Source of the DNA: Microbispora hainanensis
GTDB lineage: Bacteria; Actinomycetota; Actinomycetes; Streptosporangiales; Streptosporangiaceae
Assembly: GCF_006874475.1 (NCBI RefSeq)
Contig: NZ_VIRM01000019.1
Location: 1-64,000, forward strand
Direction: 5' to 3'
DNA length: 64,000 bases
Of the stretch, positions 23,914 to 39,180 are shown piece after piece; the stretch's first letter is position 1; every line of letters begins with the position of its first letter. A program made the position numbers and the translations under genes. Under the pieces are notes generated by a model. It saw only the letters and a program-made list of their open reading frames with translations, did not search any database and was not told the origin of the DNA.

Positions 23914-24029
23914 GTTTTGGTCAGCCCTGTTTGGTCGGCCCTGTTTGGTCGGCGCTGTTTTGGTCGGCGTTGTTTTGGTCGGCGTTGTTCGGTCAGCGCT
24001 GTTTTGGTCGGCGCTGTTCGGTCAGCGCT
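23914..24029. repeat. Eight 14-15 nt tandem units across a gene end
   Basis: Units of the type GTTTTGGTCGGCGCT begin at 23914, 23929, 23943, 23957, 23972, 23987, 24001 and 24016. They run from the terminator into the 3' end of the minus-strand gene; the stop codon of that gene (24022-24024) lies within the last unit. The unit length is not a multiple of three, and most of the array is non-coding. Confidence 0.92.
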
Positions 24030-25011
24030 GGTTGTTCGGATCCTCGCCCTCGCCGACCGCCTGACTCCAGGGGTCGGGCTGTGCCTGCTGCTGGGCCTGC
24101 ATGTGGGCCTGCTGCTGCGCCTGCATCTGGGCGGGGTCGGCCACCGGATATCCGTACGGCTGGGGGTAGCCGTACTGCACCGGGTAGCCGTAGGGCTGCT
24201 GCGGATAGCCCACGGTGTAGGGCTGGACGGGCACGAAGCCCACCATCGGGGCGTAACCGGGGGTGGCCGCCGCCGGGTAGGCGACTGCCGCCGCCTCGGA
24301 AGCCGGCGTCCGTGCCGCGGCCGGGCCTCCCCGCCGTACGGCGGCGGCGTGCGCCATCCTGCGCAGCCGGCCCTCGAAGATCAGCCAGGCGATCAGCGCG
24401 ATGCCCACGAGCACCCCGGCGGGGATGGCGAGCCGGTGGGCCAGCGTGGGCTTGTCATACTCGGGCGTCGCGTTGCGGATCTCGATCGGCACCGTCTGGG
24501 GATCGGGCTGCTCGAACGACACCCCGCCCGGGGTGGGGCTCTGCTGCGCCGTGTCCGGCGTCGGCTCGGCCGACGCGGGGGGCAGGCTGACCTCCCCGTT
24601 CTGCTCCGGCGTGGGGCTGGGATTCGTGAGAGGGTTGTCGGTCAGCGTCGGGATCGACTGCGTGGCGTTCTGCCCGGTGTTCTGCTCGGTCGTGGACGCG
24701 GGGGGAGCGGTCGTCGTCGTGACCGGCTTGGGCGACTTGCTCTTGCTCGGCGACGGCGTCGGCGTGATAGTGACGGTCTTGGTAACCACGGGCTCGGCCG
24801 TGGAGCTCCCGCTGGGCGAGGACCCGATCGGCGGCGTCTGGGTGACGGTCACCGTGACGACGGCGCACTGGGGGTCCGTGGTGGGATCACACGGCTCCAC
24901 CGGCTCGGCGTTGGCGCCGATCATCGGGCCCACGGCCAGAACCGCCAGCGTGGCGATGGCCACGGACGCGGCAGCCGACGACGCGGCTCTCAGGTACACG
25001 CGTCCGATCAC
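24022..25011 (-). CDS. Mucin-like single-pass membrane protein of unknown function
   Basis: The product is 329 residues from a GTG with AGGAGG upstream. A signal sequence occupies about 1-35. A Thr/Ser/Pro-rich extracellular stalk (about 36-190) follows, then one membrane helix (about 195-215, LAIPAGVLVGIALIAWLIF), basic residues, and a cytoplasmic tail rich in Tyr-Gly-Tyr-Pro and Gln-Ala repeats (YGYP units, MQAQQQA twice). I do not recognise a family. It follows the Nudix gene on the same strand after 93 bp and so may be the last gene of the secretion-like operon. A cell-wall-spanning stalk role is plausible only as inference. Confidence 0.75.
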   Translation of the reverse strand: MIGRVYLRAASSAAASVAIATLAVLAVGPMIGANAEPVEPCDPTTDPQCAVVTVTVTQTPPIGSSPSGSSTAEPVVTKTVTITPTPSPSKSKSPKPVTTTTAPPASTTEQNTGQNATQSIPTLTDNPLTNPSPTPEQNGEVSLPPASAEPTPDTAQQSPTPGGVSFEQPDPQTVPIEIRNATPEYDKPTLAHRLAIPAGVLVGIALIAWLIFEGRLRRMAHAAAVRRGGPAAARTPASEAAAVAYPAAATPGYAPMVGFVPVQPYTVGYPQQPYGYPVQYGYPQPYGYPVADPAQMQAQQQAHMQAQQQAQPDPWSQAVGEGEDPNNQR

Positions 25012-25104
25012 CGCTCGCCTCCTGTCGGCCCTGCTATGAGGTCAGAACCGATTGTAGATTGGTAAAAGCAGGAGCAAAGCCCGATCTTGCGAACGATTCG
25101 GCGA

Positions 25105-25506
25105 CTATCCGCCGTGTTTCGGCAGCAGTTTCTCGATCGCGGCGACGACCGGCAGATCCGCGGGAAGCCAGGGGACGTCGTAGAGCTCGTGCGGCTCCAG
25201 CCAGCGCAGCGCGAGGTGTTCCAGCGGGCGGGGCTCACCCGTGACGACGGTGGCGAGCCACACGCGCATCACCCAGTCGCCGTGCAGGGGCCAGTCGCCG
25301 CCCACGCGGCGTCCGAGGGCGACCTGGACCCCGAGCTCCTCGGCGCACTCGCGCACCAGCGCCGCGTGCTCGTCCTCCCCCGGGTCGACCTTGCCGCCGG
25401 GAAACTCCCAGCCGCCGCGCAGCGCGGGCGGCGCGGACCGCTGGGCGGCCAGGAGGCGGCCGCCCTCGACGATCGCGGCTCCGACGACGAGACGCGGGCC
25501 CGTCAT
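25105..25506 (-). CDS. Nudix hydrolase (MutT-like)
   Basis: The product is 133 residues with a canonical Nudix box, GGKVDPGEDEHAALVRECAEELG (split here as GGKVDPGE then DEHAALVRECAEELG), matching Gx5Ex7REUxEExGU. An N-terminal VVGAAIVEGGRLLAAQRSAPP and a C-terminal WLEPHEL..LPWLPAD-like segment resemble MutT proteins that remove oxidised nucleotides. The substrate is not proven. The ATG at 25506 overlaps the stop of the upstream NlpC/P60 gene (ATGA), so it is translated as part of the secretion-like operon, an odd partnership. Confidence 0.9.
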   Translation of the reverse strand: MTGPRLVVGAAIVEGGRLLAAQRSAPPALRGGWEFPGGKVDPGEDEHAALVRECAEELGVQVALGRRVGGDWPLHGDWVMRVWLATVVTGEPRPLEHLALRWLEPHELYDVPWLPADLPVVAAIEKLLPKHGG

Positions 25507-26651
25507 GTCTGGGCCCGCTTGAGCTGCTCGGTGACGGTCTCGTTCGCCAGCGGCCGGGTGAACCCGACGATGTTGGGCCGGTCGCGGTACGTCGAGACCT
25601 TGATGGGCCCGCACAGCGTGCACCGCGCCTCGATCATCTTGCCGGGCGACACGACCATGCCGACATGCCCGGGATTGTCCTCAGAGGTGCCGGGACCGGC
25701 GTTGAAGAAGACGAGGTCGCCGGGCTGCTCCTCGCCCGCCTCGATCTTCACGCCGAAGGGCCACTGGCCGAAGGTCGTGCGGGGAATGGTCAGACCCGCG
25801 TTGCGGTAGGCCATGTAGATGATCCCCGAGCAGTCGAAGGCGTCCGGTCCCGTGCCGCCCCACCGGTACGGCTTGCCCCGCTGCGCGAGAGCGTACTCGA
25901 GGATCTTGCGGACGACGTCGTCGGGGGCGCTGTCGACGAAGCCGGAGTCGCAGGCCGGGTCGGCGTCGGGCGGCAGGCCGATCTCCCCGGTCGCCGCGTA
26001 GCGCTTGGCGATCTCCAGCACCTGGTCGACGTACCAGGTGGCCCGGTTGTAGACGAAGATCGCCCTCCTGAGGTCGTCGGGCGCGCCGTTGCGCTTGAGC
26101 ATCTTGGCCGCGCCGAGGATGGCATCCGCCGGGTCGTAGACGTCGCCGTAGCCGTCGCCGTCGCCGTCGGAGGCGTAGCCGTTGATCCCCGGCTCGATCT
26201 TCATCCTCGGCTGGCCGCCCCAGGTGCTGATGAGGAACTGCATCGGCCCCGCGGCCCCCGCGTAGTTGGTGCCGCTGCGCACCCCCGGCAACGTCGAGCG
26301 GCCGTGGTTCGTCTCCCGCTTGCCGATGGCGGCCAGGACGTTCCACTGCACGCCGATCTGCTTGCCGAACTTCTTGTAGAGCTCCAGGTAGTCGGCCGGG
26401 ATGTCGCCCTGGGCGGTCTGCGAGACGTCGGCGGCGGCGCCCTCCCCCGTGGCCGCCTGCGCGCAGTTCTCCGCCGCGCCGCCGCCGAAGAGGATCGACG
26501 GGCTGGGGGTCATCAGGATGATCGAGCCGAACAACGTGGCCGGGACGATCACGATGAGGGCCACGGCGATCGTCCGCCAGTCCCGCCCCGCCGACGCGAG
26601 CCTGCGTACGACGCGCGTCGAGGCGGGAGTCATGCGCGGCGGAGCGGTCAC
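25503..26651 (-). CDS. Lytic transglycosylase + NlpC/P60 cell-wall hydrolase (VirB1/TcpG-like)
   Basis: The product is 382 residues from a GTG. A membrane helix at about 27-48 anchors it. Residues ~85-225 are a lysozyme/transglycosylase-like domain with Glu113 in GKRETNHGRS and GPMQFLISTW. Residues ~245-360 are NlpC/P60, with Cys274 in FDCSGI and His329 in PGHVGMVV. It should cut both glycan strands and peptide stems, opening the wall for a trans-envelope machine, as VirB1 and TcpG/CwlT proteins do in conjugation systems. It overlaps the genes on both sides by 4 bp. Confidence 0.9.
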   Translation of the reverse strand: MTAPPRMTPASTRVVRRLASAGRDWRTIAVALIVIVPATLFGSIILMTPSPSILFGGGAAENCAQAATGEGAAADVSQTAQGDIPADYLELYKKFGKQIGVQWNVLAAIGKRETNHGRSTLPGVRSGTNYAGAAGPMQFLISTWGGQPRMKIEPGINGYASDGDGDGYGDVYDPADAILGAAKMLKRNGAPDDLRRAIFVYNRATWYVDQVLEIAKRYAATGEIGLPPDADPACDSGFVDSAPDDVVRKILEYALAQRGKPYRWGGTGPDAFDCSGIIYMAYRNAGLTIPRTTFGQWPFGVKIEAGEEQPGDLVFFNAGPGTSEDNPGHVGMVVSPGKMIEARCTLCGPIKVSTYRDRPNIVGFTRPLANETVTEQLKRAQT

Positions 26652-27295
26652 GGCGTGCTGTCCCCGTCCTGACCGGCGTCGGCCAGTTGCAGGTCGTAAA
26701 CCCGCCAGTCGGTCCCCGCCTTGATCACGGTCACGGCGAAGCGCTCGGGCACGTCCTTCTGGCCGTTCTTGTCCGTCACGTGACGGACCGAGTCGACGAC
26801 GAACACCACCTGGTCGGCCGTCATGTCGCGGATCGTCGTCACCTTCGCCGATCCCTTGGAGTTCACCTGGTCGGTCTTGTTCTGCTCCACCACGGCGGGG
26901 TCGGTGACGGTCCTAGTGAGCTGGCCGCCGAACTCGTCGGTCGCGAACCGCTTCAGCCGGTCGGCCCGCGCCGCCGGCTCCTCTCCGGGAGAGAAGGTGC
27001 CGTACGCCTCGGTGAAGCGGCGCGCCAGGTCGGCCGCCGCGCCGATCTCCTCCTTCGACAGCGGCAGGTACGCGTACACGTCGAAGGCGCCGGGGGTCGT
27101 GGCCACCGGGCTGGGCTCGCGGGCCGCGGCCGTCGCCCGCGAGGTGACGACGACCGACTGCTCCCTCGTCTGCTCGTCACCAGAGGAGGAGTCGGACGGC
27201 CCGCTCATCGTGAGGTAGACGCCGACGGCGGCGAGCACCACGACGGCCGCCGCGAAGGCGAGGCCCTTCCCCCGATCACTGTTTCGGCTTCTCAT
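26648..27295 (-). CDS. Membrane-anchored NTF2-like protein of the secretion-like operon
   Basis: The product is 215 residues from the ATG at 27295. One membrane helix lies at about 10-30, followed by a Ser/Thr-rich linker and a domain (about 70-210) with a helix LARRFTEAYGTFSPGEEPAARADRLKRFATDEF and later strands ending in WRVYDLQLAD. This resembles the NTF2-like/VirB8-type fold of small conjugation proteins, but the identity is not certain. It is 19 bp after the VirB6-like gene and overlaps the next gene by 4 bp. Confidence 0.7.
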   Translation of the reverse strand: MRSRNSDRGKGLAFAAAVVVLAAVGVYLTMSGPSDSSSGDEQTREQSVVVTSRATAAAREPSPVATTPGAFDVYAYLPLSKEEIGAAADLARRFTEAYGTFSPGEEPAARADRLKRFATDEFGGQLTRTVTDPAVVEQNKTDQVNSKGSAKVTTIRDMTADQVVFVVDSVRHVTDKNGQKDVPERFAVTVIKAGTDWRVYDLQLADAGQDGDSTP

Positions 27296-27314
27296 GACAG
27301 CGCGGAGGTTCCCG

Positions 27315-29873
27315 TCAGTCGCCGGAGTCGCGGTCGGCGGGCTTGGCCCAGAACGGGGCGGGCGCGTCGCCGTCGCGGCGCGTGCTCTCTCCCCTGCTCG
27401 GCAGCCAGAGCGGGGGCGGCTCGGCCGAACGGGGACGGCTGGACGACCCGCCGAAGATGCCACCCGACGAACCACCGGACGAACCCGAGTCGCGCGGGGC
27501 GGGCCGGGCCCGGCCGCCGTCGCTGCGGCGGGACGACCCGCCGAAGATGCCGCCCGAAGAACCGCCGGACGAACCACCCGACGAACCGCCGGACGAACCA
27601 CCCGACGACCGGTTCGAGGACCTGCCAGACGAACCGCGCGAACCACCGCCGAAGAACCCGCCCGAGCCGCCGCCGGACGACCGGGTGGACGACGGCCGGG
27701 AGGCCCAGCCGCCACCGGACCTGCCGCCGAACCAGCCGCCACCGGACCCACCGGACGACCCGCCGCTCGATCCGCCGCTCAGGCGGCCGCGGGACGGTGC
27801 GGGCTGTGCTGTGGATGACCCAGTGGATGACCCAGTGGATGACGCTGCGGACGGAGCGGGCGCGGGGGACACGCCGGTGATCCGCTGCGGCGGGCTTCCC
27901 GCCGACGCCGCAGACACAGCCTGGGCCGCCTGTGCCGCCTGTGCCGCAGGGCGCGGGCCTGACGGCATGGACGCCCGTACGGCCCCGGCGGGGCGCACCC
28001 CCGACAGGTTGAGCGGCGGGGCCGTTCCCGGACGCGAGGCGGTGACCCCTGCCTTGCGGCGGCCGGCCCCCTGCGCGTCGGTGTCGAGCGGCGCGGGTTG
28101 CGCCCCCGCACGCGCTCCCGCCTGGGCGGGGACGTTGCCCGCCCCCTCCTCGCCGCGTACGCGGCCCTGCGCCACGCCCGTCGCGGCGGCCGCCGCCGTG
28201 CCCGCACCGGTCGCCATCGCGACCGCGCCCATGACCGGCTCGGCCTTGCGCAGCCCCCATCGGGCCGCCCGGGCCGCCGCGACCGGCGGCAGCGCGTTGG
28301 CCGCCCGCGAGAGGGTCGGCGCGGTCGCGGCCTCGCCGAGCATCCGGGTGGTGATCGTGTGCCCGTCCATGGAGGCGAACAGGTGCTGGAACGGCCGTCT
28401 GTAGAAGAAGACCGCGATCGTCAGCAGCGCCATGAACAGGATCTGCATGCCCCAGGGCAGGCTGGTCGAGATGATCAGCGCGTAGCCGTACACGAGGACG
28501 CCCAGCACCAGGGCCAGCACCGCCTGACGCAGCAGGGTGCCGACCAGCATCTCCACCCAGCGCATGGCGATGATGCGGCCGGAGCCCGGATGCACGCCGA
28601 TCAACAGGAAGACCGGCCCGAGCATCAGCAACAACAGGAAGCCGACCTTCAGCACGAGCAGCGACACCGCGACGAGGAAGATGAGCAGACCGGCGACCAT
28701 CGCCGCGATGAACGCGCCGATCGCGATGCCCAGGCGGCTGGTCCAGTCCTTGCCCTGGAACAGGAAGTACGCCGGGGTGCTCTGCATGGGCTTGGCGACC
28801 TCCTCCTCGAACCGCTGCTGGTGCGAGTCGGAGGCCGGCGTCTGGTCGGCGGCCTGCTCGGCGGCGTCGATCGCCTGGAGGTTGAGCAGCTTGGCGCCCA
28901 GGCCCTTCACGAGACCGGAGTCGGGGTCGGCCGTGCCGAACTCGCCCATCAGCCACGGCTTGCAGACCAGGACCGACCACAGCGCGTCGGCGTTCTGCTC
29001 GACGCCGGGCGTGCCCTGGCGGCCGTAGCCGCCCGCCGTCGGGGCGCTCGGCACCTCGCCCGGCGCGGTCTCCTTCATCGGCAGGCACGACGCGCCGCCC
29101 GCCCCGGGCAGCCCGGAGAACGCCGAGTTAACGATCTCGCCGGTCTTGTCCGTCACGGTCTTCCCGAGGCTGGTGAAGTCGCCCGGGCGGCTGAAGAACC
29201 AGATGGCGACCGTGACCGCGAGCACCATCCAGATGACGCCCTCGGTGGTCGTCGTAGCGCGCTTGCGGATCAGGCCGTACCACGCCAGCCAGATCGCGCC
29301 GAGGATGACGATCGGCCGCAGGTAGGGCCAGTACATCGCGTTGGCGAGGTTGGTGACGATCTCGTCGGCGACGTCCTTGATGGGCTGCAGCGGGCCCTCG
29401 GTCGCCGCCGCCTGGTAGGTGCTGATCGTCAGCCGGTCGACGGCCTTGGCCCACGAGAAGACCGTGTTGGCCCACGCGTTGCCGAGCACGGCCGTGACGT
29501 CGGAGCACCCGAGGTCGTAGGTGTGCCAGAACTGGCCGGCCATGCCGTAGCGCTCGTAGTTGGTCTGCGGCTCCTTCGGCGCCTGCCCGGTGTTCTGGCC
29601 AGAGTTCTGGCCGGCGTTCTGACCGGCCGCCGCGTCGTCGGTCGCCGGCGGCTGGACCAGCCCGTCGACGCCGCCGCCCACGATCTCCGGGGCGAGGGCG
29701 GGCGACAGGTCACAGGGCCCGACCGCGCTCGCCGTACCGGCGGGAAAAATCAGCGGAAGCGTCACGAACGCCGCGAAGGCGACGAAAAGCAGGGCCAGGG
29801 TCCGGCGGACCCGCCTGCCGCGTCTGCCGCCCTCCCGGGTGCGACCCCTGGGACCGTTCCTGCGCACGCTCAC
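27315..29873 (-). CDS. VirB6/TrbL-like polytopic membrane protein with Gly/Ser-rich tail
   Basis: The product is 852 residues from a GTG. A hydrophobic segment at about 25-47 is followed by several membrane helices (roughly 190-205, 215-232, 395-425, 425-445, 465-490). Among them is the KVGFLLLLMLGPVFLLIGVHPGSGR region that I associate with TrbL/VirB6 channel proteins. From about 560 onward the tail is disordered; the last ~200 residues are SGGS/GGSSGG repeats. It would be the inner-membrane channel core. Its GTG overlaps the VirB4 stop by 4 bp. Confidence 0.75.
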   Translation of the reverse strand: MSVRRNGPRGRTREGGRRGRRVRRTLALLFVAFAAFVTLPLIFPAGTASAVGPCDLSPALAPEIVGGGVDGLVQPPATDDAAAGQNAGQNSGQNTGQAPKEPQTNYERYGMAGQFWHTYDLGCSDVTAVLGNAWANTVFSWAKAVDRLTISTYQAAATEGPLQPIKDVADEIVTNLANAMYWPYLRPIVILGAIWLAWYGLIRKRATTTTEGVIWMVLAVTVAIWFFSRPGDFTSLGKTVTDKTGEIVNSAFSGLPGAGGASCLPMKETAPGEVPSAPTAGGYGRQGTPGVEQNADALWSVLVCKPWLMGEFGTADPDSGLVKGLGAKLLNLQAIDAAEQAADQTPASDSHQQRFEEEVAKPMQSTPAYFLFQGKDWTSRLGIAIGAFIAAMVAGLLIFLVAVSLLVLKVGFLLLLMLGPVFLLIGVHPGSGRIIAMRWVEMLVGTLLRQAVLALVLGVLVYGYALIISTSLPWGMQILFMALLTIAVFFYRRPFQHLFASMDGHTITTRMLGEAATAPTLSRAANALPPVAAARAARWGLRKAEPVMGAVAMATGAGTAAAAATGVAQGRVRGEEGAGNVPAQAGARAGAQPAPLDTDAQGAGRRKAGVTASRPGTAPPLNLSGVRPAGAVRASMPSGPRPAAQAAQAAQAVSAASAGSPPQRITGVSPAPAPSAASSTGSSTGSSTAQPAPSRGRLSGGSSGGSSGGSGGGWFGGRSGGGWASRPSSTRSSGGGSGGFFGGGSRGSSGRSSNRSSGGSSGGSSGGSSGGSSGGIFGGSSRRSDGGRARPAPRDSGSSGGSSGGIFGGSSSRPRSAEPPPLWLPSRGESTRRDGDAPAPFWAKPADRDSGD

Positions 29874-32347
29874 GATCGCACCTCCTGCGCGACCCCCGAC
29901 CGACCGGAGCCCCCGTCAAGAAGATCATGCACGTTCTCGTTGGGTTTGTCGTGTGTCGGATTGGTGTCAAGCCAGCGCAGCAGCTCTTCCGAGATAAGGT
30001 CCACCCCGATACGGCCGGCCCGGCCGTCCAGATCCCGGAAGACGCACTCCCCGTTGCCCAGGGAGCGCAGCACCGCCTTGTGCTCCTCCGACGGGTCGAC
30101 GCCCAGGAGCTCCATCACGTGCTCGACCTCCACGCGTTCCGTCGAACGGAACGCGAAGACCGACGACAGACAGTTGGTCACCTGCTCGTTGAGCAGGTCA
30201 CCGGCGTTCTGCGAGACCAGGACGAGCGCCGTGTTGCGTGAGCGGCCCATCCGGGAGACCTCCGGCACGAGCTTGGCGCCCTCGGGAGTGGACGTGATCG
30301 CCCACGCCTCGTCGAGGAAGATCGCCTTCGGCGTGCGCCGGTCGAGCCCGTTCATCAGCCGGCGCGCGAACTGCGACACCAGATAGAGCAGCGCGACCGA
30401 CAGCCGCTGCTCGTAGGAGTAGTCGTCCCTTACCGTCATCGCGTCGGGCAGCGTGAGGCCGCCGAGCGTGAACACGGTCGTCCAGCCCTCGGTGTCGATC
30501 TGCTCGCCGCCCGAGGCGTCGAAGCACAGCCGGGCCAGGTGCATCTCCGACATCGACCGCAGCACGGCGCCGAGGTTCTTCGACGCCGGGTCGGTGGAGT
30601 GCTCCAGGTGGTCCACGACCTTGCCCAGCGAGGGGTCGGGCTCGTTGGAGACCGCGGCGACCGCCTGGATCATGGCGGACTCGCGCTCCTCCGACATCCT
30701 CGGCAGCAGCAGCCGCAGGGTCTCGGTCGCCATCGTCTTCTTCGTCGCGATGTCGTCGCCGAACGAGAACGGGTCGAGCAGGCCCGGCGCGGCCGACCCC
30801 AGCGGAATGACCCTGGCCTTGCGGCCCCGGCCGCGCAGCAGCCGTACGAGCGACTCGGCGTCGCCCTTGGGGTCGATGACCGCGATCGTGACGCCGCGCA
30901 GCGCCATCTGGTAGATCAGCAGCAGCGCGAGCGTGGTCTTGCCGCCGCCCGGCTCACCGGTGATCGCGATGGCGGTCGGGCGGTTGCGCGCCGCCGCGAC
31001 GAGCGGGTCGAAGTGCACGATGCTGCGCGCCCGTCCCAGCGTCTCCCCGACGTACGGCCCGATCCAGCCGGCGTTCGACTCGTCCACCCGGTCGCCGAGC
31101 TCGACGGTCGCGGTGGCCATGCCGCCCGCGATCGTGCGCAGCGGCTGCCGCTGGGCGTACGCGTTGACCCGCAGCCGCTCGCCGGGAAGGGCCTCGCAGA
31201 ACAGCGAGAACTGGTCGCCGGTGGAGTTGACGACGTCGATGCCGATGTCGCGGTAGTGCTCCACGACGGCCTCGACCCGCTGGACGCACATCTCCTCGGT
31301 CGGCGCGCTGACGCTCAGCCGGTGCCAGCCGTACACGAACGGCAGTCGTTCCTTGGTGATGCCGTGCTCCAGCATGCGGGCGGCGTCGATCTGCTCGGCC
31401 AGCGCGAGCGGCGCCTCCGCGCCCGCCTCGCGGATGTGGATGTCCATGTCGCGGGCGTGGGCCAGCTTGCGCGCCACGTCCTTGCTCGCCCTGACCGGGG
31501 GGATCAGCCGCATCCGGCTGGAGACCTCCACCGGGAACGGCAACTGGTCGGCGAAGTGCAGCCACGGCTCGCCGTCGGGGAACGGCATGAGGTCGGGGAA
31601 CCGGGCGAACGACAGGTGCGCGGTGTAGGAGTCTCCGGCCGGCTGCTCGATCCGCAGCAGCGACCTGCCGTTGTGGATCTGCCCCTCGACCAGCGACTCG
31701 ATCTCGCCCTTGCCCCACCTGCGGCGCGGCGTGGCCGAGGGGGACGGCTCGCCGAGGCCGCCCGCCGCCGCGTGCTGGAACAGCCAGGCGATCTCCGTGG
31801 AGGTGGCGTGGCGGGCGTAGAGCGCGCTGGAGGCCAAGGCCCGGCCGAGCCGCTCGGCGGCCTCGGTCCACCGGGTGATCTCCTTGTCCGGCACGTGGTC
31901 GTCCTCGATGCCGAGCGCCTTCTCGCTGCGCTGGTAGAAGCCGAAGAGCTGGGCCAGCACGCCGGTGCCGAGCTGCGCGCCGCGCGGCCCGAGCCGTACG
32001 CCGAGGTAGACCTCCTTGCTCCAGAAGTCCTTGGCCCAGACGTGGCGGTACATCTCCTCCAGGTACTCCCGCCAGCCCGGGCCCTCGTCCGAGGTCGAGT
32101 TGAGCGCCATCGCCCACTCCGCCGCCGGGTAGGCCCGGTGCGCGATCCGCAGGTGCACCTCGGCGTCGGACATCCTGATCGCGGCCAGCGCGATCGTGAT
32201 GTTGGTGGCCAGCGCCTCGCGCTCCTCGGGGGTGAGGAACTCGTAGCTCACCGTCGGCAGCCGGAAGTAGGCCCAGGCCGCCGAGTCGGTGAGAAGAACC
32301 CGGTCGTCGAAGTAACGCACCGCGAGGCGACTGCGCGCCCTGCTCAT
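29870..32347 (-). CDS. VirB4/TraC-like conjugation ATPase
   Basis: The product is 825 residues. Walker A is GEPGGGKTT (Lys470), and Walker B is KAIFLDEAWAI (Asp679-Glu680). VSQNAGDLLNEQVTNCLSSVFAFRS is the motif-3/arginine-finger region of VirB4 proteins. The N-terminal ~400 residues match the VirB4-type membrane-interaction domain (the RHATSTEIAWLFQ and YGWHRLSVSAP region). VirB4 energises assembly or transport in type IV secretion systems. It sits between the TcpE-ATPase fusion and the VirB6-like gene, the usual order in Gram-positive conjugation modules. All active-site residues look intact, so it is probably functional. Confidence 0.92.
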   Translation of the reverse strand: MSRARSRLAVRYFDDRVLLTDSAAWAYFRLPTVSYEFLTPEEREALATNITIALAAIRMSDAEVHLRIAHRAYPAAEWAMALNSTSDEGPGWREYLEEMYRHVWAKDFWSKEVYLGVRLGPRGAQLGTGVLAQLFGFYQRSEKALGIEDDHVPDKEITRWTEAAERLGRALASSALYARHATSTEIAWLFQHAAAGGLGEPSPSATPRRRWGKGEIESLVEGQIHNGRSLLRIEQPAGDSYTAHLSFARFPDLMPFPDGEPWLHFADQLPFPVEVSSRMRLIPPVRASKDVARKLAHARDMDIHIREAGAEAPLALAEQIDAARMLEHGITKERLPFVYGWHRLSVSAPTEEMCVQRVEAVVEHYRDIGIDVVNSTGDQFSLFCEALPGERLRVNAYAQRQPLRTIAGGMATATVELGDRVDESNAGWIGPYVGETLGRARSIVHFDPLVAAARNRPTAIAITGEPGGGKTTLALLLIYQMALRGVTIAVIDPKGDAESLVRLLRGRGRKARVIPLGSAAPGLLDPFSFGDDIATKKTMATETLRLLLPRMSEERESAMIQAVAAVSNEPDPSLGKVVDHLEHSTDPASKNLGAVLRSMSEMHLARLCFDASGGEQIDTEGWTTVFTLGGLTLPDAMTVRDDYSYEQRLSVALLYLVSQFARRLMNGLDRRTPKAIFLDEAWAITSTPEGAKLVPEVSRMGRSRNTALVLVSQNAGDLLNEQVTNCLSSVFAFRSTERVEVEHVMELLGVDPSEEHKAVLRSLGNGECVFRDLDGRAGRIGVDLISEELLRWLDTNPTHDKPNENVHDLLDGGSGRSGVAQEVRS

Positions 32348-32377
32348 CGACCTCTCACCAGCTTCCTCGCTCGCCCC

Positions 32378-34957
32378 TCATCTGGCCACCTCCTGCTTGG
32401 CCTGGACAGCCGCCAGGCCGCTCACGATCACACCCGCAAGCGCAACGTACGCCCTGCGGCCGCCCATTCGGAGGTGATTGACGTCGACCGGTCCCGGCCG
32501 CCCGGGAGCCAGTTCGTCCTCCCACGGCACCCGGACGATCGCCCGGCAGCGGCCGCTGGCCACCGCCTCGGCCTGCTCCACGTCGGGGAGGCTGCGGCGG
32601 CTCACGCCGTTGATCACCATCACGGCGCGTCGCCGCAGGTCGGAGCAGCCGTGCCCGTCGAGCCACTCGTAGGTCATCGCCACCGCCTCGGAGGCGTCCT
32701 CGCTCGCGGGGGCGACCAGCACGAGCTGGTCGGCGTACGGCAGGAGCCGGGCCGCCAGCGCGGCCGCGGGGTCGATCACGGTAAGCCGGTAGTGCCGGTC
32801 GAGCGCGGCGAGCGTCCTGCGCCAGTCGGCCAGGAACGCGCGTTCGGCCAGGCGCTGCGTGACCCGGTCGTCGGTGTCCGCCCCGACGACCTCCAGTCCC
32901 GATTCACAGCGCGTCGTGTACGCCCGCATGCCGAGGTAGCCGTTCACCTCTTCCGAGCTCTCGATGAGCGAGCTCAGCGTCTCGGGTGACTCTGCGGCGA
33001 TCCTCGTGGTGAGCGTGTCCTCTCCGGTGTTCGCGTCGAGCGCGAGCACACGGTCATCGCGATAGCGGGCCAGTGTGTGGCCCAGCATTAACGCCGTGGT
33101 CGTCTGCCCGGCGCCGCCCGTGCAGCCGAGCACCATGATCCGCCTGCTCGTGGTGAGCGGGATGCGGGTCCTGGCCTCGTCGACCTCCATGCCGTCCGTA
33201 CGGCTGCCGCCCACGACGACCTGCGCCAGGCGCCGCCAGCCGCCGGAGGTGTCACGGCCGACGACGGCCTCGACGCGGCGCAGCCGCGGCGGCTCCTCGT
33301 GCGCCGGCCTGCCGGGGGTGGGCGTCCCGGGGGTGGGCAGCGACGGCCGGGCGGGCCCGGCCGGGCCCGCGGCGCGCGGACCCACGGGCACGGCCCGGAT
33401 CGACACTCCCGCCGAACCCGCAGTGCCTACAGCGCCCACAGGGCCCACAGCGCCCGCAACGCCCTCGTACGGCCTGGACCCCGTGTGGTGGGCCGCCTCC
33501 CGCGCGGGCGTGTCCTGCGTCTCCGGTCGGGAAGCAGTGGAGGCGTCGGAGACGCCGGCCGCCGGCTCCAGGGGCTCAGTGGGCTCCATGGGCACTCGGG
33601 ACGCCGCGGCCGCGGGGGGCGCCACCTCCGAGGCCGCGTGGACCACGGGCGCCTCGCTCGCCGGCTCGCCGGCTGCATCGGCTGCATCTGCTGGCACCCG
33701 GGGCGGCCGCACGAGCCGCGGCGGACGGCCCTTCCGATGCTGGGCAAGGGCCTCGGCGTCGTGCACGCGCGCGTCGCGTGGACGCTCCTCGTGCACGGGC
33801 TCCACCGCGACCGGCTCGGACTCGGGCGCGGGCTCCGGCTCCGGCTCTGGTTCGGGCTTCGGCTCGGTGAAGGGGGCCGCACCGGACGGCCGTACCGCAC
33901 GGGGCTCGGGACCCTGTTCGGGGCGTTCGGGGCGTTCGGAGCGGGGCTCGAGATGGGGCTCGGGGCGGGGCTCGGCCGAGGCGGCGAGCCTGCGCAGGCG
34001 GCGCAGCGTCTCGGTGCCGATGGGCGGGGCGGCAGGCGCCTCCGCCTCCGGTGCCTCAGTGGGCACGGCGGGCGCGGCGGCGGCCGGGAGCGCCTGCTCC
34101 ACCGGTCCCTGCACAGCGCCCTGCACAGCGCCCTGCACAGCGCCCTGCACGGAGTCCTGCACAGCGCCCGGCACACGGCCCGGCACACGGCCCGGCTCGT
34201 GGCTCTCTTCGCGGCTCTCGGGAAGCTCCTGGGGCTCGCGTTCCCGCTCCGGCTCCGCCGGCGGCAGGGGCGGGGGCACGGACGACATAGGCGGCGCGGG
34301 CGGCTCCGTGAGGTAGACGACGCGATCACCGGCGGCAGCGGCCCGGGAGGCGGCACCGCTTCGGGGCAGGAGGGCGGGAGGTGCGTCCGCGACCGGCGCG
34401 GCGGCGGCAGCCGCGGCCGCCACGGCCGGGCGTACGACACGTGACGGATCCACCTGATGCGCGCCCACTCGTGCGGCGGCCCCCAAGGCCGGCCGTACGC
34501 CGCTCCTGGAGACCTTCGGGACGGGCACCTTGACCGAGACCGCGCGGCGCGCCTTGCGCTCCGCCCTGCCCTGCTCCATCGCGACCGGCGGCGTGGTCCG
34601 CCAGACACGTGCCGTCAGCGCGACCTCGTCCGGCTCGTCGAACGGGGCCATACGGCACCACGTGCGGGGCTCGCTCATGTAGCGGAGCTGCGACTGGAGC
34701 AGCTCGGTGAGGCGCTTGCTCTCGATGACGGGACGGGTGGACAGCCAGGTGAGCACACCCGGAGGAACGAGGTAGATGACGTGCCAGGGGGCCGCGAACG
34801 GCAGTCCGATCAGGTAGAGGAAGACCGACCACGGCACGGAGACACCCACGAACACACCGATCCAGACGACCGGAAGCGGCATCGGCAGCCGTAGGTCGTA
34901 CAGCTTGTACAGCCGCTTCTCAATACGCCAGATATTGGTATATGTGGGCAGATCCAC
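32378..34957 (-). CDS. TcpE-like membrane domain fused to a degenerate MinD/ParA-type ATPase
   Basis: The product is 859 residues. I choose the GTG at 34957 because it follows GGAGAGGAGG; a TTG at 34993 is weaker. Residues 1-~115 (MDLPTYTNIWRIEKRLYKLYDLRLP, two membrane segments at about 30-70) match TcpE of Gram-positive conjugation systems. A ~450-residue Pro/Glu/Ala linker with VQGA repeats follows. The last ~254 residues are a MinD/ParA-like domain: RIMVLGCTGGAGQTTTALML, LALDANTGEDT and TVIDPAAA. Both P-loop lysines of the KGGxGKT motif are missing (T and Q), so ATP hydrolysis is doubtful. The joining of a TcpE part and a pseudo-MinD part in one chain is unusual. Confidence 0.8.
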   Translation of the reverse strand: MDLPTYTNIWRIEKRLYKLYDLRLPMPLPVVWIGVFVGVSVPWSVFLYLIGLPFAAPWHVIYLVPPGVLTWLSTRPVIESKRLTELLQSQLRYMSEPRTWCRMAPFDEPDEVALTARVWRTTPPVAMEQGRAERKARRAVSVKVPVPKVSRSGVRPALGAAARVGAHQVDPSRVVRPAVAAAAAAAAPVADAPPALLPRSGAASRAAAAGDRVVYLTEPPAPPMSSVPPPLPPAEPEREREPQELPESREESHEPGRVPGRVPGAVQDSVQGAVQGAVQGAVQGPVEQALPAAAAPAVPTEAPEAEAPAAPPIGTETLRRLRRLAASAEPRPEPHLEPRSERPERPEQGPEPRAVRPSGAAPFTEPKPEPEPEPEPAPESEPVAVEPVHEERPRDARVHDAEALAQHRKGRPPRLVRPPRVPADAADAAGEPASEAPVVHAASEVAPPAAAASRVPMEPTEPLEPAAGVSDASTASRPETQDTPAREAAHHTGSRPYEGVAGAVGPVGAVGTAGSAGVSIRAVPVGPRAAGPAGPARPSLPTPGTPTPGRPAHEEPPRLRRVEAVVGRDTSGGWRRLAQVVVGGSRTDGMEVDEARTRIPLTTSRRIMVLGCTGGAGQTTTALMLGHTLARYRDDRVLALDANTGEDTLTTRIAAESPETLSSLIESSEEVNGYLGMRAYTTRCESGLEVVGADTDDRVTQRLAERAFLADWRRTLAALDRHYRLTVIDPAAALAARLLPYADQLVLVAPASEDASEAVAMTYEWLDGHGCSDLRRRAVMVINGVSRRSLPDVEQAEAVASGRCRAIVRVPWEDELAPGRPGPVDVNHLRMGGRRAYVALAGVIVSGLAAVQAKQEVAR
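34109..34168 (-). repeat. 12-nt tandem units in the TcpE-ATPase linker
   Basis: The plus-strand unit CTGCACAGCGCC occurs at 34109, 34121, 34133 and 34157, with a variant CTGCACGGAGTC at 34145. The units encode VQGA repeats in the disordered linker and stay in frame. Confidence 0.9.
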
Positions 34958-34979
34958 CCCGAACCTCCTCTCCGCCCGA

Positions 34980-35267
34980 TCACTTGATGCCAAGTGCGCC
35001 CGCGATCGCCTTCGCCGTCACCTCGATGATGTTGGGAACGTAGAAGATCACGCCGATCGCGATCGCCAGGATGATGAACTGGACGAACCTGGTGATCTCT
35101 CGGGTGAAGAGGAAGAAGATCGCCACGACGGAGACGACCGCGAGGAAGAGCGGAGCGAAGAACCTCCGGAGGAAGTCGGCGAGACCTTCGGTGTTGATGC
35201 CCGCCGTCGGCGCCGGTGACGGCGCGGCGAGATCAAGGAAGTGGTCCGCGATGGTCTTCAGTATCAA
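34980..35267 (-). CDS. Small two-helix membrane protein of the secretion-like operon
   Basis: The product is 95 residues from a TTG start at 35267, supported by GGAGGGCGAG just upstream. Membrane segments lie at about 38-53 and 60-80, with a short basic bend between them. Position (between the TcpC-like and TcpE-like genes) and shape fit the small TcpD/PrgI-type or VirB2/VirB3-type subunits of conjugation machines, but there is no family signature I can name. It could be a pilin-like or channel subunit. Confidence 0.75.
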   Translation of the reverse strand: MILKTIADHFLDLAAPSPAPTAGINTEGLADFLRRFFAPLFLAVVSVVAIFFLFTREITRFVQFIILAIAIGVIFYVPNIIEVTAKAIAGALGIK

Positions 35268-35317
35268 CTCTCGCCCTCCCGGGGGGATGGATCAGCGATG
35301 TCTTTGCCGGGCATGCG

Positions 35318-36328
35318 CTACCCCACGGACCGGTTCGCACCCTGGATGTCCCTGACGAACCACTTGCCGCCCTGCTTTTCGATGGTCAGCTGATAGGCCT
35401 GTTCGAGACCGGCCGGCTGTGCCGCCGGGTCCTGCGACGGGCTCGCCACCGCCGCCGACTGTCCTGACGCGACCGCCCACACGACCACGGCCGTGACCTT
35501 CCTGCTGTCGGAACCGCCCGGCGGGACCAGCACGTCCTTCAGCTCGGCGAGGGTGAACTCGCCGTTGAACCCGTTGACGGTCACCCCGCTCGCCACGTAG
35601 CGCTGGAGGTCGACCTGGTTGCCCGCGGCGTACGCCTTGAAGAAGCCTTCGAGCTGGGGACGCAGTTCGGCCTCGGTGGCGGAGTCGCGGTCGGGGTCCG
35701 GGAGCTGCGGCAGGCCCGCCGGGCCGGGCGCGGGCAGCAGAGCGGGCTGGGCCGAGACCACGAACCGGCCGTTGTCGTAGTAGACCGGCACGGACAGCAG
35801 ACCGCGGGTGCCCCCCGTCTGGTAGGTCACGGTCACCCGCGCGTTGTGCTCGTCGATCACGTCGATGCCGGTGAACTGGAAGGCCCCCGCCGACATGCGT
35901 CCGTAGCCGTTCCAGCCGAACTGCTCGTCGGCGCCCTCCGGCAGGAACGACCTCAGCCGTTCCGCGCGCTGCTGGGGATTGGCCGCGTCGTAGTTGAGGT
36001 AGACCGCCGCGAACTGGTTGGCGAAGGCCGCCGCCTGCGTCGCCGGGAATCCGGACGTGGCCGAGCCGGTGGGGGCCACGCCGGCCGAATCGTCCTGCGT
36101 CAGCCGTTCGAACGGAGCGCGCACGCCGTTGACCACGATCACGATGATCAGCGCCCAGAGGATGACCCGCCCGGTCCAGACGAGCCAGCGGCCTCCACCA
36201 CCGCTCCAGCCTCTGCGACGGGGGACCGTGCCGTGCGCCGCGCTCGCCGCCTCGAAACCTTCCAGTGGGTACGGGTCAGGGTCGCCAGCGATCCGCGGAT
36301 CCTGCTGGACGTCTGACCTGCGAGCCAT
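35318..36328 (-). CDS. TcpC-like conjugal transfer protein
   Basis: The product is 336 residues. I choose the ATG at 36328, preceded by GGAGG; a GTG one codon upstream is possible. A cytoplasmic Pro/Gly-rich N terminus is followed by one membrane helix (about 49-68) and an extracytoplasmic region with two NTF2-like domains (about 90-195 and 220-335). The helix AAAFANQFAAVYLNYDAANPQQRAERLRSFL and the repeated domain plan match TcpC, the VirB8-like scaffold of pCW3 and Tn916-type conjugation. It is the first gene of the operon, so the promoter should lie in 36330-36450. Confidence 0.85.
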   Translation of the reverse strand: MARRSDVQQDPRIAGDPDPYPLEGFEAASAAHGTVPRRRGWSGGGGRWLVWTGRVILWALIIVIVVNGVRAPFERLTQDDSAGVAPTGSATSGFPATQAAAFANQFAAVYLNYDAANPQQRAERLRSFLPEGADEQFGWNGYGRMSAGAFQFTGIDVIDEHNARVTVTYQTGGTRGLLSVPVYYDNGRFVVSAQPALLPAPGPAGLPQLPDPDRDSATEAELRPQLEGFFKAYAAGNQVDLQRYVASGVTVNGFNGEFTLAELKDVLVPPGGSDSRKVTAVVVWAVASGQSAAVASPSQDPAAQPAGLEQAYQLTIEKQGGKWFVRDIQGANRSVG

Positions 36329-36331
36329 CAC

Positions 36332-36681
36332 GCCTCCGCTCGCGCCGATCCCTCCGGCTGGCGCGGTTTCCTCTTGCTCTCGATCCGGTTAACCGCATTG
36401 AAGTATTCACCCTAGCGGCCTCGCCAATTCTTCCAGGTAAGCCACGCCCATGGTGCAAGCATCGCCGCGACCGAGCAAACCAGGTCTACATCCCTGGAGA
36501 GACGCCCCACACCTATCCACTCCGCGGAAAAGCACGTTACGCCTGGCCAGCGGGGACATCGATTACCTAACCGCCACCTATTGCTGTCTTCGCAGCTCGC
36601 AGGCATAACGAAACCGTCCATACGCGCCACGACGGCCCCGCCCGAGCGGGACCGTCGTGCCTCTGAGCTACGCCCGCACCC
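36332..36681. other. 350-bp non-coding region upstream of the secretion-like operon
   Basis: No credible gene is seen here. The segment is notably less G+C-rich around 36395-36600 than its surroundings, as expected for a promoter region serving the minus-strand operon. It also holds the hairpin at 36628-36659 behind the next gene. I could not assign a clear -35/-10 pair. Confidence 0.6.
36628..36659 (-). terminator. Hairpin after the secreted repeat protein gene
   Basis: CACGACGGCCCCGC (36628-36641) and GCGGGACCGTCGTG (36646-36659) pair over 14 positions with one mismatch and a 4-nt loop. It is 23 bp beyond the minus-strand stop at 36682. No T tract is present. Confidence 0.7.
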
Positions 36682-37776: not shown

Positions 37777-38700
37777 TCAAGGCCGTTCGAGATCGTAGGC
37801 CACATCCGCCACGCGAACCGTCCGGACCAGCGGATCCTCGATGATCTTCCGCAGCTCGCCGATCGTCACCGACGAGTCCACGTAGGCGTAGGCCAGGCCG
37901 TCGTCCGCGGCCTTGCGCAGCCGCGCCAGGCTGAGATCGAAGTCGTGCAGGTTGCCGTCGTCGTAGTCCTTGAGGATGCCGGCCCAGCGCCGGAAGTTCG
38001 CGAGGTCGGACCTGAGCGGTTCATCGTCCTCTCCCGGCATCGGGACCCGGTCCCATGTCGTCGTCCCTCCCCAGGTGATGGGGATCGACCCGGGTCGCCG
38101 CTCGAAAACCACCTTGTCGGCGTACGACTTGTACCTCCGGGTGAAGGCGGCCAGCTCATCGATGGTGAGCGGCGTGACGAACTCGACAACCGCCAGCGCG
38201 TTGAGCCCCTCGGGGAGCCTGGCCAGGACCTTGCGGCTGTCCTCCTTGGGCTGGTTGCCCGTCCCCACGTTCATCAGCGCGAGGTTCAGCGTGGTGCCGG
38301 CGCTCGCGCCGAGCGGCAGCCTGCCCACATGGCCGAAGAAGTCCTGGGTGACCACGTGCTCGGCGCCGCCGTATCCCTCGGCGAAACCTCCGACGGCCCG
38401 CATGGGCCTCGCGGCCACGGTGAACGACATCGACAGCGGCGTGGTGGCACCCCAGTTGCGGACCTCGATGTCGTAGCTCGGGTTGTAGATCTTGAAGGCG
38501 GTGCCCAGCACGTCGGTCATGCGCTGCTCCCTGTCGCCGCGCCGCTGGATCAGGCCGGAGCCCACCGTCGCCGCCAGGACGAGGACGAGCAGTGCCGCCA
38601 GCACGGTGATCGCAGTGCGGGCGATACCCCGCCGTACGGCCCGGCGGGCCGCGCTGGGATCGAAGTCGGGCATGGGCGGCAGCAGAGCGTCGTCAGTCAT
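37777..38700 (-). CDS. Membrane regulator of the ECF sigma factor (anti-sigma-like)
   Basis: The product is 307 residues. A cytoplasmic N terminus (about 1-25, FDPSAARRAVRRGIART), one membrane helix (about 27-50) and a large extracytoplasmic domain follow. The outer domain starts with YNPSYDIEVRNWG and ends with VRVADVAYDLERP. This plan matches the 'sigma factor regulator' N/C domain type of anti-sigma factors rather than the zinc (HxxxCxxC) type. The ATG overlaps the sigma gene's stop by 8 bp, so the pair is co-translated. It probably holds the sigma factor until an envelope signal arrives. Confidence 0.75.
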   Translation of the reverse strand: MTDDALLPPMPDFDPSAARRAVRRGIARTAITVLAALLVLVLAATVGSGLIQRRGDREQRMTDVLGTAFKIYNPSYDIEVRNWGATTPLSMSFTVAARPMRAVGGFAEGYGGAEHVVTQDFFGHVGRLPLGASAGTTLNLALMNVGTGNQPKEDSRKVLARLPEGLNALAVVEFVTPLTIDELAAFTRRYKSYADKVVFERRPGSIPITWGGTTTWDRVPMPGEDDEPLRSDLANFRRWAGILKDYDDGNLHDFDLSLARLRKAADDGLAYAYVDSSVTIGELRKIIEDPLVRTVRVADVAYDLERP

Positions 38701-39180
38701 GAGGGCCTCCGTAAAGATCGGCGAAGGCCGCCCTGGCACGCCACACGGCCGTCTTGACGGCGGCGTGCTTCCTGCCGGTCATCGCGGCCACCTCGACCAG
38801 CGAGAAGCCCTCGAAATAGACCAGGGTGAGCAGCCTGCGGTGCTCCTCGGCCAGCCGGTCCAGGACGTCGCGTACGGCCAGCGACTCGACGTGCAGCGGA
38901 GGCACGCCGAGCTCGTCGGGGTGGGGCAGGTCCAGCTCGCGGCGGTGACGCCGCACGTGGTCGACGAGAACGTTGCGAGCGATGACGAGCAGCCATGCCG
39001 CCGGGTTCCCGCCGCGCCAGCCGAGCAGGGCCCTGGTCGCCTTGACGAACGTCTCCTGGGCCAGGTCCTCGGCGAGGTGGGGATCGCGGGTGCGGCGCAA
39101 CAGGAACCCGCACACGAGCGCCCAGTGCTCGCGGTACAGCTCCTCGATGATGATGCCCCCCGCGTCTTCGTGTCTGTCAC
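38693..39180 (-). CDS. ECF-type RNA polymerase sigma factor (probable frameshift near the start)
   Basis: The core is clear: region 2 (LYREHWALVCGFLLRRTRD, HLAEDLAQETFVKATRAL) and region 4 (LTLVYFEGFSLVEVAAMTGRKHAAVKTAVWRARAAF). The first in-frame usual start is a GTG at 39115, but that removes part of region 2. Upstream in-frame codons encode IIIEELYREHWAL without any ATG/GTG/TTG. A GTG at 39180 (MTDTKTRGG) enters the same frame only if one G is added to the G6 run at 39156-39161. The region is 488 nt (3n+2), consistent with one missing base. Either the base is a sequencing error, or an unusual ATC start or slippage is used. It is coupled to the membrane regulator. Confidence 0.8.

Follow-up and report, generated by a model that had tools for sequence, protein, structure and literature searches.

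Can a Gram-positive conjugation apparatus, with none of the genes that process or mobilize DNA beside it, be held in a chromosome as a machine of the host? The question is raised by a minus-strand operon of Microbispora hainanensis on contig NZ_VIRM01000019.1, within an analysed stretch of 64,000 nt (hereafter the window). Eight close-packed genes, running from 36331 down to 25105, encode TcpC, a small transmembrane (TM) protein, a TcpE-ParA fusion, VirB4, VirB6, a VirB8-like protein, an SLT-NlpC hydrolase and a Nudix enzyme. An initial annotation had proposed that these genes might form a domesticated type IV secretion system (T4SS) that moves protein or something else in place of DNA. Comparison of related genomes indicates that the operon is very probably a domesticated host machine, i.e., a vertically inherited, relaxase-free mating-pair formation (MPF) apparatus of the MPF-FA type.

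Distribution, chromosomal position and selection

VirB4 was present in 294 of the 297 genomes in the family set, with best E-values <=2.8e-231; the three genomes without it were 67–74% complete, and all 263 genomes that were at least 90% complete contained it. The family as defined in the database also takes in Nocardiopsis, which NCBI places in Nocardiopsaceae, and is therefore wider than classical Streptosporangiaceae. In a sample of the order, VirB4 was found in the single genome of family f2 (81%) and was lacking from three genomes of family f3, one of which gave no match and two only weak matches (29–30%), while among 296 genomes sampled from the class the best match beyond the family was 31% identical. 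Presence is thus near-universal and not strain-specific, which leaves no empty site for comparison, and the non-ICE reading of the initial annotation (ICE, integrative and conjugative element) passes the test of patchiness.

One scan of the collection gave 278 candidate stretches, 253 of which code for a relative; the best 80, retained as named loci, were all from classical Streptosporangiaceae genera, Microbispora being nearest (VirB4 95–98% identical). Gene order was compared in a set of 81 loci with at most 10 kb, and in some cases less, of upstream sequence. The order from tcpC to the Nudix gene, followed by the mucin-like gene and sdhB/sdhA, was kept wherever sequence reached, and ychF lay upstream in 56 loci, the rest being too short or without a match within 10 kb, so that a fixed chromosomal locus was confirmed in related genomes. 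Missing parts coincided with contig ends, except that VirB6 was not found by tblastn in 3 of the 81 loci despite sufficient space. The Nudix gene was present in 69 loci, and the other 12 stopped short of its position. Among more distant family members, upstream ychF and the T4SS genes were kept in most loci examined whereas the Nudix and sdh genes were not; two distant genomes (G098 and G306) had different genes in the available upstream stretch, and several loci of genus g26 had a few genes inserted within the operon.

Compared with three Microbispora species, dN/dS for VirB4 was 0.071, 0.063 and 0.124, and that for YchF was 0.076 in the single comparison available. Values for TcpE-ParA in Microbispora comparisons were 0.17–0.46, and those for the second VirB8-like protein (0.32–0.49) and the mucin-like protein (0.55–0.59) were much looser than for VirB4. 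Divergence of VirB4 and of YchF was correlated over 60 loci (r 0.90), with mean identities of 0.883 and 0.864, respectively. The low dN/dS of VirB4, together with the intact active-site motifs described below, argues that the operon encodes a working envelope machine and not a relic, a conclusion that these comparisons make highly likely.

Relaxase, coupling protein and integrase genes

As claimed in the initial annotation, DNA-processing and mobility genes were not found in the window; no match to relaxase, coupling protein or integrase families was noted when its 57 proteins were scanned against Pfam. MobA/MobL (PF03389) was absent from the whole M. hainanensis genome, other contigs of which carry further mobile-type VirB4 and TraG genes. 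Profile searches for relaxase, TraG and FtsK were each performed on 47 genomes. Relaxase PF03432 gave 11 matches in 10 of these, all on other contigs or megabases away from the locus, and no match whatever in the other 37. TraG-D_C (PF12696), which marks TraG/VirD4-type proteins, gave 43 matches in 28 genomes and none in 19, and a single match, in G255, fell within 20 kb, about 10 kb from VirB4 and beyond the operon. A PF03432 relaxase gene thus never accompanied the locus in these genomes and a TraG/VirD4-type (PF12696) gene did so once. The latter (L147:7649-9406) is a 585-aa open reading frame (ORF) next to what appears by eye to be an M48-like peptidase ORF.

Identity of the components

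The labels TcpC, TcpE, VirB4, VirB6, NlpC/P60 and Nudix were borne out by Pfam profile searches, and each of the seven genes first described was present as an ORF at its expected coordinates. The parts of an MPF-FA apparatus are therefore represented by VirB4/TcpF with intact Walker motifs, TcpE, VirB6/TrbL, VirB8/TcpC and a VirB1-like hydrolase, the SLT match of which is under cut-off. The match of VirB4 to TcpF (NF052333, 3e-72) fell below the cut-off of that model, as did the match of VirB6 to the CD3337/EF1877 family (3.3e-23). In an alignment of 132 VirB4 rows, which is redundant and includes two plasmid rows, Walker A (GEPGGGKTT) was found in 132/132 and Walker B (FLDEAW) in every row. 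A PDB search with the single VirB4 sequence gave two matches only, to the HerA-like YjgR and to a VirB4-like protein.

Other identities were established in part. The wall hydrolase, described earlier as lysozyme-NlpC/P60, matched NLPC_P60 (2.4e-20) while its lysozyme-type SLT_2 match was marginally under the Pfam cut-off (24.1 vs 24.3 bits). In a 96-row alignment the SLT Glu was present in 92 rows and the NlpC Cys and His in 93, the alignment not extending over these residues in the remaining rows. The NTF2-like protein matched TcpC (PF12642) only at an E-value of 0.0015, and its profile was closer to the structure of OmamC (3.1e-5) than to that of TcpC (3ub1, 0.068); for its gene, the ATG at 27295 is a more likely start than that of the long ORF, which reaches 27751. 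The small TM protein (95 aa) has two TM segments and stands at the expected position, but no family was matched above cut-off in family-profile scans; its versions on a Bacillus plasmid and a Nocardiopsis plasmid were 41% identical over 41 aa.

The TcpE-ParA fusion

Among 81 chromosomal loci in which the two ends were locatable, TcpE and a ParA-like domain formed one ORF in 79, and the two parts were split in the remaining two (L057 and L115). The description of this gene as TcpE-like/ATPase stood for TcpE, while the supposed ATPase part proved to be a ParA/MinD-like domain whose P-loop is degenerate (GCTGGAGQTT in the window) and whose CbiA/AAA_31 matches were below cut-off. The pattern G-C-[TA]-G-[GS]-A-G-Q-[TS] was found in 79/79 fused proteins, and 34/34 chromosomal alignment rows concurred. 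Compared with the canonical deviant Walker A motif, K-G-G-x-G-K-[ST], both signature lysines are replaced, by T and Q (A/T variation aside). The separate ParA of Nocardiopsis plasmids has the canonical KGGVGKTT and is 32 and 31% identical to the window domain, with homology that extends past the P-loop. The closest solved sequences were McdA, VpsO and MinD.

Conservation of the altered P-loop argues that the ParA-like domain has retained a non-classical role; that this role is one of positioning is a possibility rated slightly below even. TadZ/CpaE, which place Tad machines, are MinD-like proteins of an atypical kind. They likewise link a ParA/MinD-like domain with an altered P-loop to a secretion machine, but unlike TcpE-ParA they are not known to be fused to a VirB3-like protein.

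Mobile relatives

The closest mobile copies were on two Nocardiopsis plasmids, N. exhalans NZ_CP099838 and N. changdeensis NZ_CP074136, where VirB4 is 75% and 71% identical to that of the window and genes for the small TM protein, TcpE, TcpC, VirB6, SLT and ParA are also found. These plasmids differ from the chromosomal operon in that the genes form two opposed blocks, TcpE and ParA are separate and the ParA P-loop is intact. Compared with chromosomal copies from g26, the plasmid small TM protein is 83–95% and VirB4 75–79% identical, while plasmid VirB6, ParA and SLT are about 31–37% identical to those copies and 62–66% identical between plasmids. In a VirB4 tree both plasmids fell inside the chromosomal set (18 rows, 16 of them chromosomal, support 100/100); the inner set with eight g26 rows was supported at 91/80 and is drawn open, the outer branches being very long and their order unsure. 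This nesting suggests that the plasmids took up the chromosomal translocon core and not the reverse, as far as the one gene compared, VirB4, can tell. The idea that plasmid copies represent the ancestral mobile form was unsupported for VirB4, which is nested among chromosomal copies. One replicon filed as a plasmid in PLSDB, NZ_LT559118.1 of Nonomuraea gerenzanensis (L042, 11.85 Mb), looks like a chromosome.

Conserved leader

About 265 nt ahead of tcpC are conserved, as indicated by nhmmer matches in the window, in all 66 named loci (L063–L142) with upstream sequence, six of them with partial matches, and in L042; among distant family members a match was noted only in G264, where it was weak and partial. 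Identity of the last 150 nt to the window was 60–95%, compared with 60–71% at VirB4 fourfold sites; in Thermoactinospora (L134), a far genus, both values were 0.60, so that the excess of conservation is gone there. The leader contains a TANNNT -10-like box, which suggests that it comprises promoter, operator and 5' untranslated region, and an invariant hairpin ahead of the ribosome-binding site. A scan for consensus promoters found none, and terminator-like sites were candidates only. Other identities were considered. No Rfam match to a known riboswitch or RNA family was obtained; the consensus fold showed almost no covariation, with an unfavourable covariance term, and an RNA structure is at most possible. 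A short ORF in the leader (MGVAYLEELARPLG in Microbispora) was rejected, since neither its start nor its frame is conserved. As a regulon motif the leader also failed, the core being unique in the M. hainanensis genome and extra matches at three mismatches numbering 6, as opposed to 4 for a reversed control.

Layout of the operon and its neighbourhood

The order of the genes (Table 1) is that of a Gram-positive mating-pair apparatus, as first noted, and corresponds to the module of a Bacillus subtilis plasmid described below. Overlaps of 4 nt were read from the sequence for VirB4/VirB6, NTF2-like/SLT-NlpC and SLT-NlpC/Nudix; the last, in which the Nudix start overlaps the stop of the hydrolase gene, is in keeping with the coupling claimed for it. 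The PF12648 (tcpE) gene is directly upstream of virB4, with a gap of 30 nt. The mucin-like TM gene does adjoin the operon, as noted earlier, but a gap of 93 nt separates it from the Nudix gene, and no other gene of the set is so poorly conserved. A tRNA-Pro that ARAGORN placed on the plus strand within the TcpE-ParA linker (33877-33945) is probably spurious.

Table 1. Features of the operon and adjoining sequence in the window.
Feature	Coordinates	Strand	Evidence
Conserved non-coding leader; suggested promoter region	36325..36588	-	nhmmer; conservation; no Rfam match; no ORF
TcpC, VirB8-like, one TM segment	35318..36331	-	PF12642 1.4e-17; 3ub1 (TcpC) E 0.0014; TM prediction
Small protein, two TM segments, TcpD/second VirB3-like position	34980..35267	-	Position; TM prediction; plasmid likeness
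TcpE (VirB3-like), long Pro/Ala-rich linker and ParA/MinD-like domain	32378..34993	-	PF12648 3.7e-21
VirB4/TcpF ATPase	29870..32347	-	AAA_10 1.2e-68; TcpF 3e-72
VirB6/TrbL, polytopic, Ser/Gly-rich C-terminal tail	27315..29873	-	PF04610 7.5e-9; five hydrophobic segments
Second VirB8/TcpC-like (NTF2-like), one TM segment	26648..27295	-	PF12642 0.0015; OmamC 3.1e-5
Membrane-anchored SLT and NlpC/P60 peptidoglycan hydrolase (VirB1/CwlT-like)	25503..26651	-	NLPC_P60 2.4e-20; SLT_2 2.5e-5
Nudix (MutT-like) enzyme, lineage-specific neighbour	25105..25506	-	PF00293 3.7e-19
Thr/Pro/Ser-rich mucin-like protein, signal-like and TM segments, weakly conserved neighbour	24022..25011	-	64/81 loci, 33-80% identity

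Other proteins of the window include YchF, LytB/IspH, the large and small subunits of exonuclease VII, GlpX, RmuC and succinate dehydrogenase subunits. Upstream of the operon (37777-39115) an ECF-type sigma factor gene overlaps a gene for a TM protein, possibly an anti-sigma factor; other genes occupy this position in G001. Genes for a SpoIIE-phosphatase response regulator, a histidine kinase and a response regulator (17117-19836) adjoin the sdh genes.

Interpretation and alternatives

A relaxase-free machine at one fixed place across nearly all of the family suggests early taming for a job of the host. An MPF-FA conjugation apparatus may have become fixed in the chromosome of the family ancestor, its relaxase and coupling protein lost or never brought in, and been inherited vertically as core genome thereafter. 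TcpC, the second VirB8-like protein, VirB6 and TcpE would form an envelope-spanning complex, for which the SLT-NlpC hydrolase would open the wall and which ATP hydrolysis by VirB4 would assemble or drive. The ParA/MinD-like part of the TcpE fusion would have ceased to be a classical switch and could, as a fixed module, dock or position the complex at a hyphal tip or septum. While the mycelium grows and sporulates, the complex might export or pass a substrate of the host, most probably a protein. Taken whole, i.e., as ancestral fixation of a wall-crossing developmental export complex, this explanation is judged the best and somewhat probable. As to its parts, protein instead of DNA as substrate is evenly balanced, and a developmental role, drawn by analogy with the Cmd system discussed below, is tentative. 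The reading of the initial annotation was thus supported in part, its domesticated, non-ICE element being favoured by near-universal presence and by the lack of a PF03432 relaxase near the locus.

Several observations weigh against this explanation. Cmd is not orthologous to the operon, so that the developmental role is one of analogy only. Known developmental binding-site patterns occurred upstream at the level of shuffled sequence, GACAC excepted (54 of 67 vs 32 shuffled), an excess that kinship alone may explain. FtsK-family proteins were found in 47/47 genomes, the positions of only part of these matches being known; their presence is expected from chromosomal FtsK and type VII secretion. 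On the Bacillus plasmid, the FtsK profile also overlooked the coupling-type DUF87 protein, which makes a divergent, unlinked coupling protein possible, and an unlinked FtsK-type motor could conceivably serve the operon.

Contact-dependent or general protein secretion with no developmental role, e.g., for antagonism or release of enzymes, is unlikely. Most proteobacterial MOBless T4SSs are protein exporters, according to PMC3158045, and the operon has a full set of wall-hydrolase and channel parts; against this, no conserved effector or immunity gene and no coupling protein is found alongside, and near-universal retention would be unusual for a system of antagonism. A host-encoded mating channel, borrowed by plasmids or actinomycete ICEs that bring a relaxase or FtsK/TraB, would account for the closeness of the Nocardiopsis plasmid VirB4, TcpE and small-TM genes to chromosomal ones and for the frequency of FtsK-type and TraG-type genes in these genomes. 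Yet the operon is kept in the 37/47 genomes without PF03432 and the 19/47 without TraG-D_C, and it is difficult to see why selection at housekeeping level would act on behalf of selfish elements, which leaves this alternative improbable. Uptake of DNA or its exchange among kin, by a machine resembling ComB, the DNA-uptake system of Helicobacter, or archaeal Ced, has similarly little likelihood. Such machines can operate without a relaxase, and Ced, a domesticated T4SS, has homologues of VirB4 and VirB6 but lacks the relaxosome of plasmids (PMC9905601). Against this, the neighbourhood of the operon contains no DNA-related pointer other than a lineage-specific Nudix enzyme of 8-oxo-dGTP type (no search was made for competence genes). 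Finally, an ordinary or decaying ICE remnant without relaxase and integrase, although suggested by the content and order of an MPF-FA transfer module and by mobile-type VirB4/TraG genes elsewhere in the genome, is very improbable, and in its patchy or decaying form already refuted, because VirB4 is near-universal, stands beside ychF among the same neighbours and shows a rate of evolution about as low as that of YchF (dN/dS 0.06–0.12), with active sites intact.

If the domesticated-machine explanation is correct, a non-conjugative MPF-FA T4SS has become fixed as core genome. According to a 2025 review (PMC12857230), nearly all known functions of Gram-positive T4SSs are in DNA transfer, which is deemed surprising, and other functions are a long-standing question. 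A complete MPF-FA apparatus without transfer genes, under housekeeping-level constraint in essentially every species of an antibiotic-producing soil family, bears on whether such machines serve the Gram-positive cell itself, and the VirB3 fusion, in which both ParA lysines have been consistently lost, defines a module that can be tested. A bolder version, in which the operon is a family-wide core and perhaps near-essential developmental conduit through the envelope or septum of these mycelial bacteria, with the silenced-ParA VirB3 fusion as a new positioning module, a leader of its own and a core re-taken by plasmids, is considered rather doubtful. No account of the operon came up in a search of the open literature on T4SSs in these genera, subscription papers lying outside its scope.

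Comparison with known systems

The operon is of the same kind as MPF-FA conjugation modules (Tn916, ICEBs1, pCW3 Tcp), but differs from them in having neither coupling protein nor relaxase, in its TcpE-ParA fusion and in its chromosomal fixation across a whole family. The MPF-FA module of the B. subtilis FUA2231 plasmid (L167), with a VirB4 about 30% identical over 97%, has the same order (TcpC, small protein, TcpE, VirB4, small protein, VirB6, a further protein, SLT/C40), preceded by DUF87 coupling-type and replication-relaxation proteins that the operon lacks. The T4SS of Patescibacteria, as presented in PMC12102498, is likewise chromosomal, ubiquitous in its lineage, mostly relaxase-free and of monoderm type, but belongs to MPF-FATA and has pilins and a VirD4-like protein, unlike the operon. 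A VirB4 cluster without relaxase also agrees with the definition of MOBless T4SS in PMC3158045, the available part of which reports few T4SSs in Actinobacteria and mentions none of this family-wide MPF-FA kind. One VirB4-like gene is conserved across three Frankia strains, according to PMC2266912.

Further T4SS-like genes were noted outside the family. A chromosomal cluster in two genomes of family f39 (G219 and G121; L046 and L049) encodes a VirB4 of 1133–1282 aa and a small TM homologue. By eye, the genes that flank it in both genomes look like folate-biosynthesis genes. Several genomes of genus f21/g60 gave a 24–25% VirB4 match in ORFs of about 900–1000 aa, possibly another chromosomal system.

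A precedent for a developmental role is Cmd of Streptomyces coelicolor, which is also chromosomal and relaxase-free and combines membrane proteins with a VirB4-like ATPase. According to PMC2782261, cmdABCDEF (SCO4126-4131) are co-transcribed, CmdB is located in the membrane, and deletion impairs aerial growth, chromosome segregation and septation/sporulation while transfer of an SLP2-derived plasmid is unchanged; actinorhodin rises upon transposon insertion into cmdBCDEF or tgdA (PMC6585502). A cmd-type locus was recognised by means of two published cmdB primers (1+4 mismatches in L045, 5+4 in L044) in genomes of group f20/g42, which are taken by inference as Streptomyces, and CmdB was 92–100% identical in ten of these. 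CmdB (about 470 aa) is 22–23% identical to the C-terminal half of the window VirB4; other Cmd-like proteins matched nothing in the operon better than an E-value of 0.4, and a gene neighbouring cmd shares the NlpC part. For 11 family genomes among the matches listed, the best CmdB match was 9.3e-16 (26–29%, mobile-type) and one genome had none. A second VirB4 of M. hainanensis (C235), considered as CmdB, was rejected since TraG-like and third mobile-type genes lie beside it. With weak CmdB identity, unmatched partners and no close CmdB among the family genomes listed, the operon is not a Cmd ortholog, and the two lineages thus seem to hold separate chromosomal T4SS-like systems.

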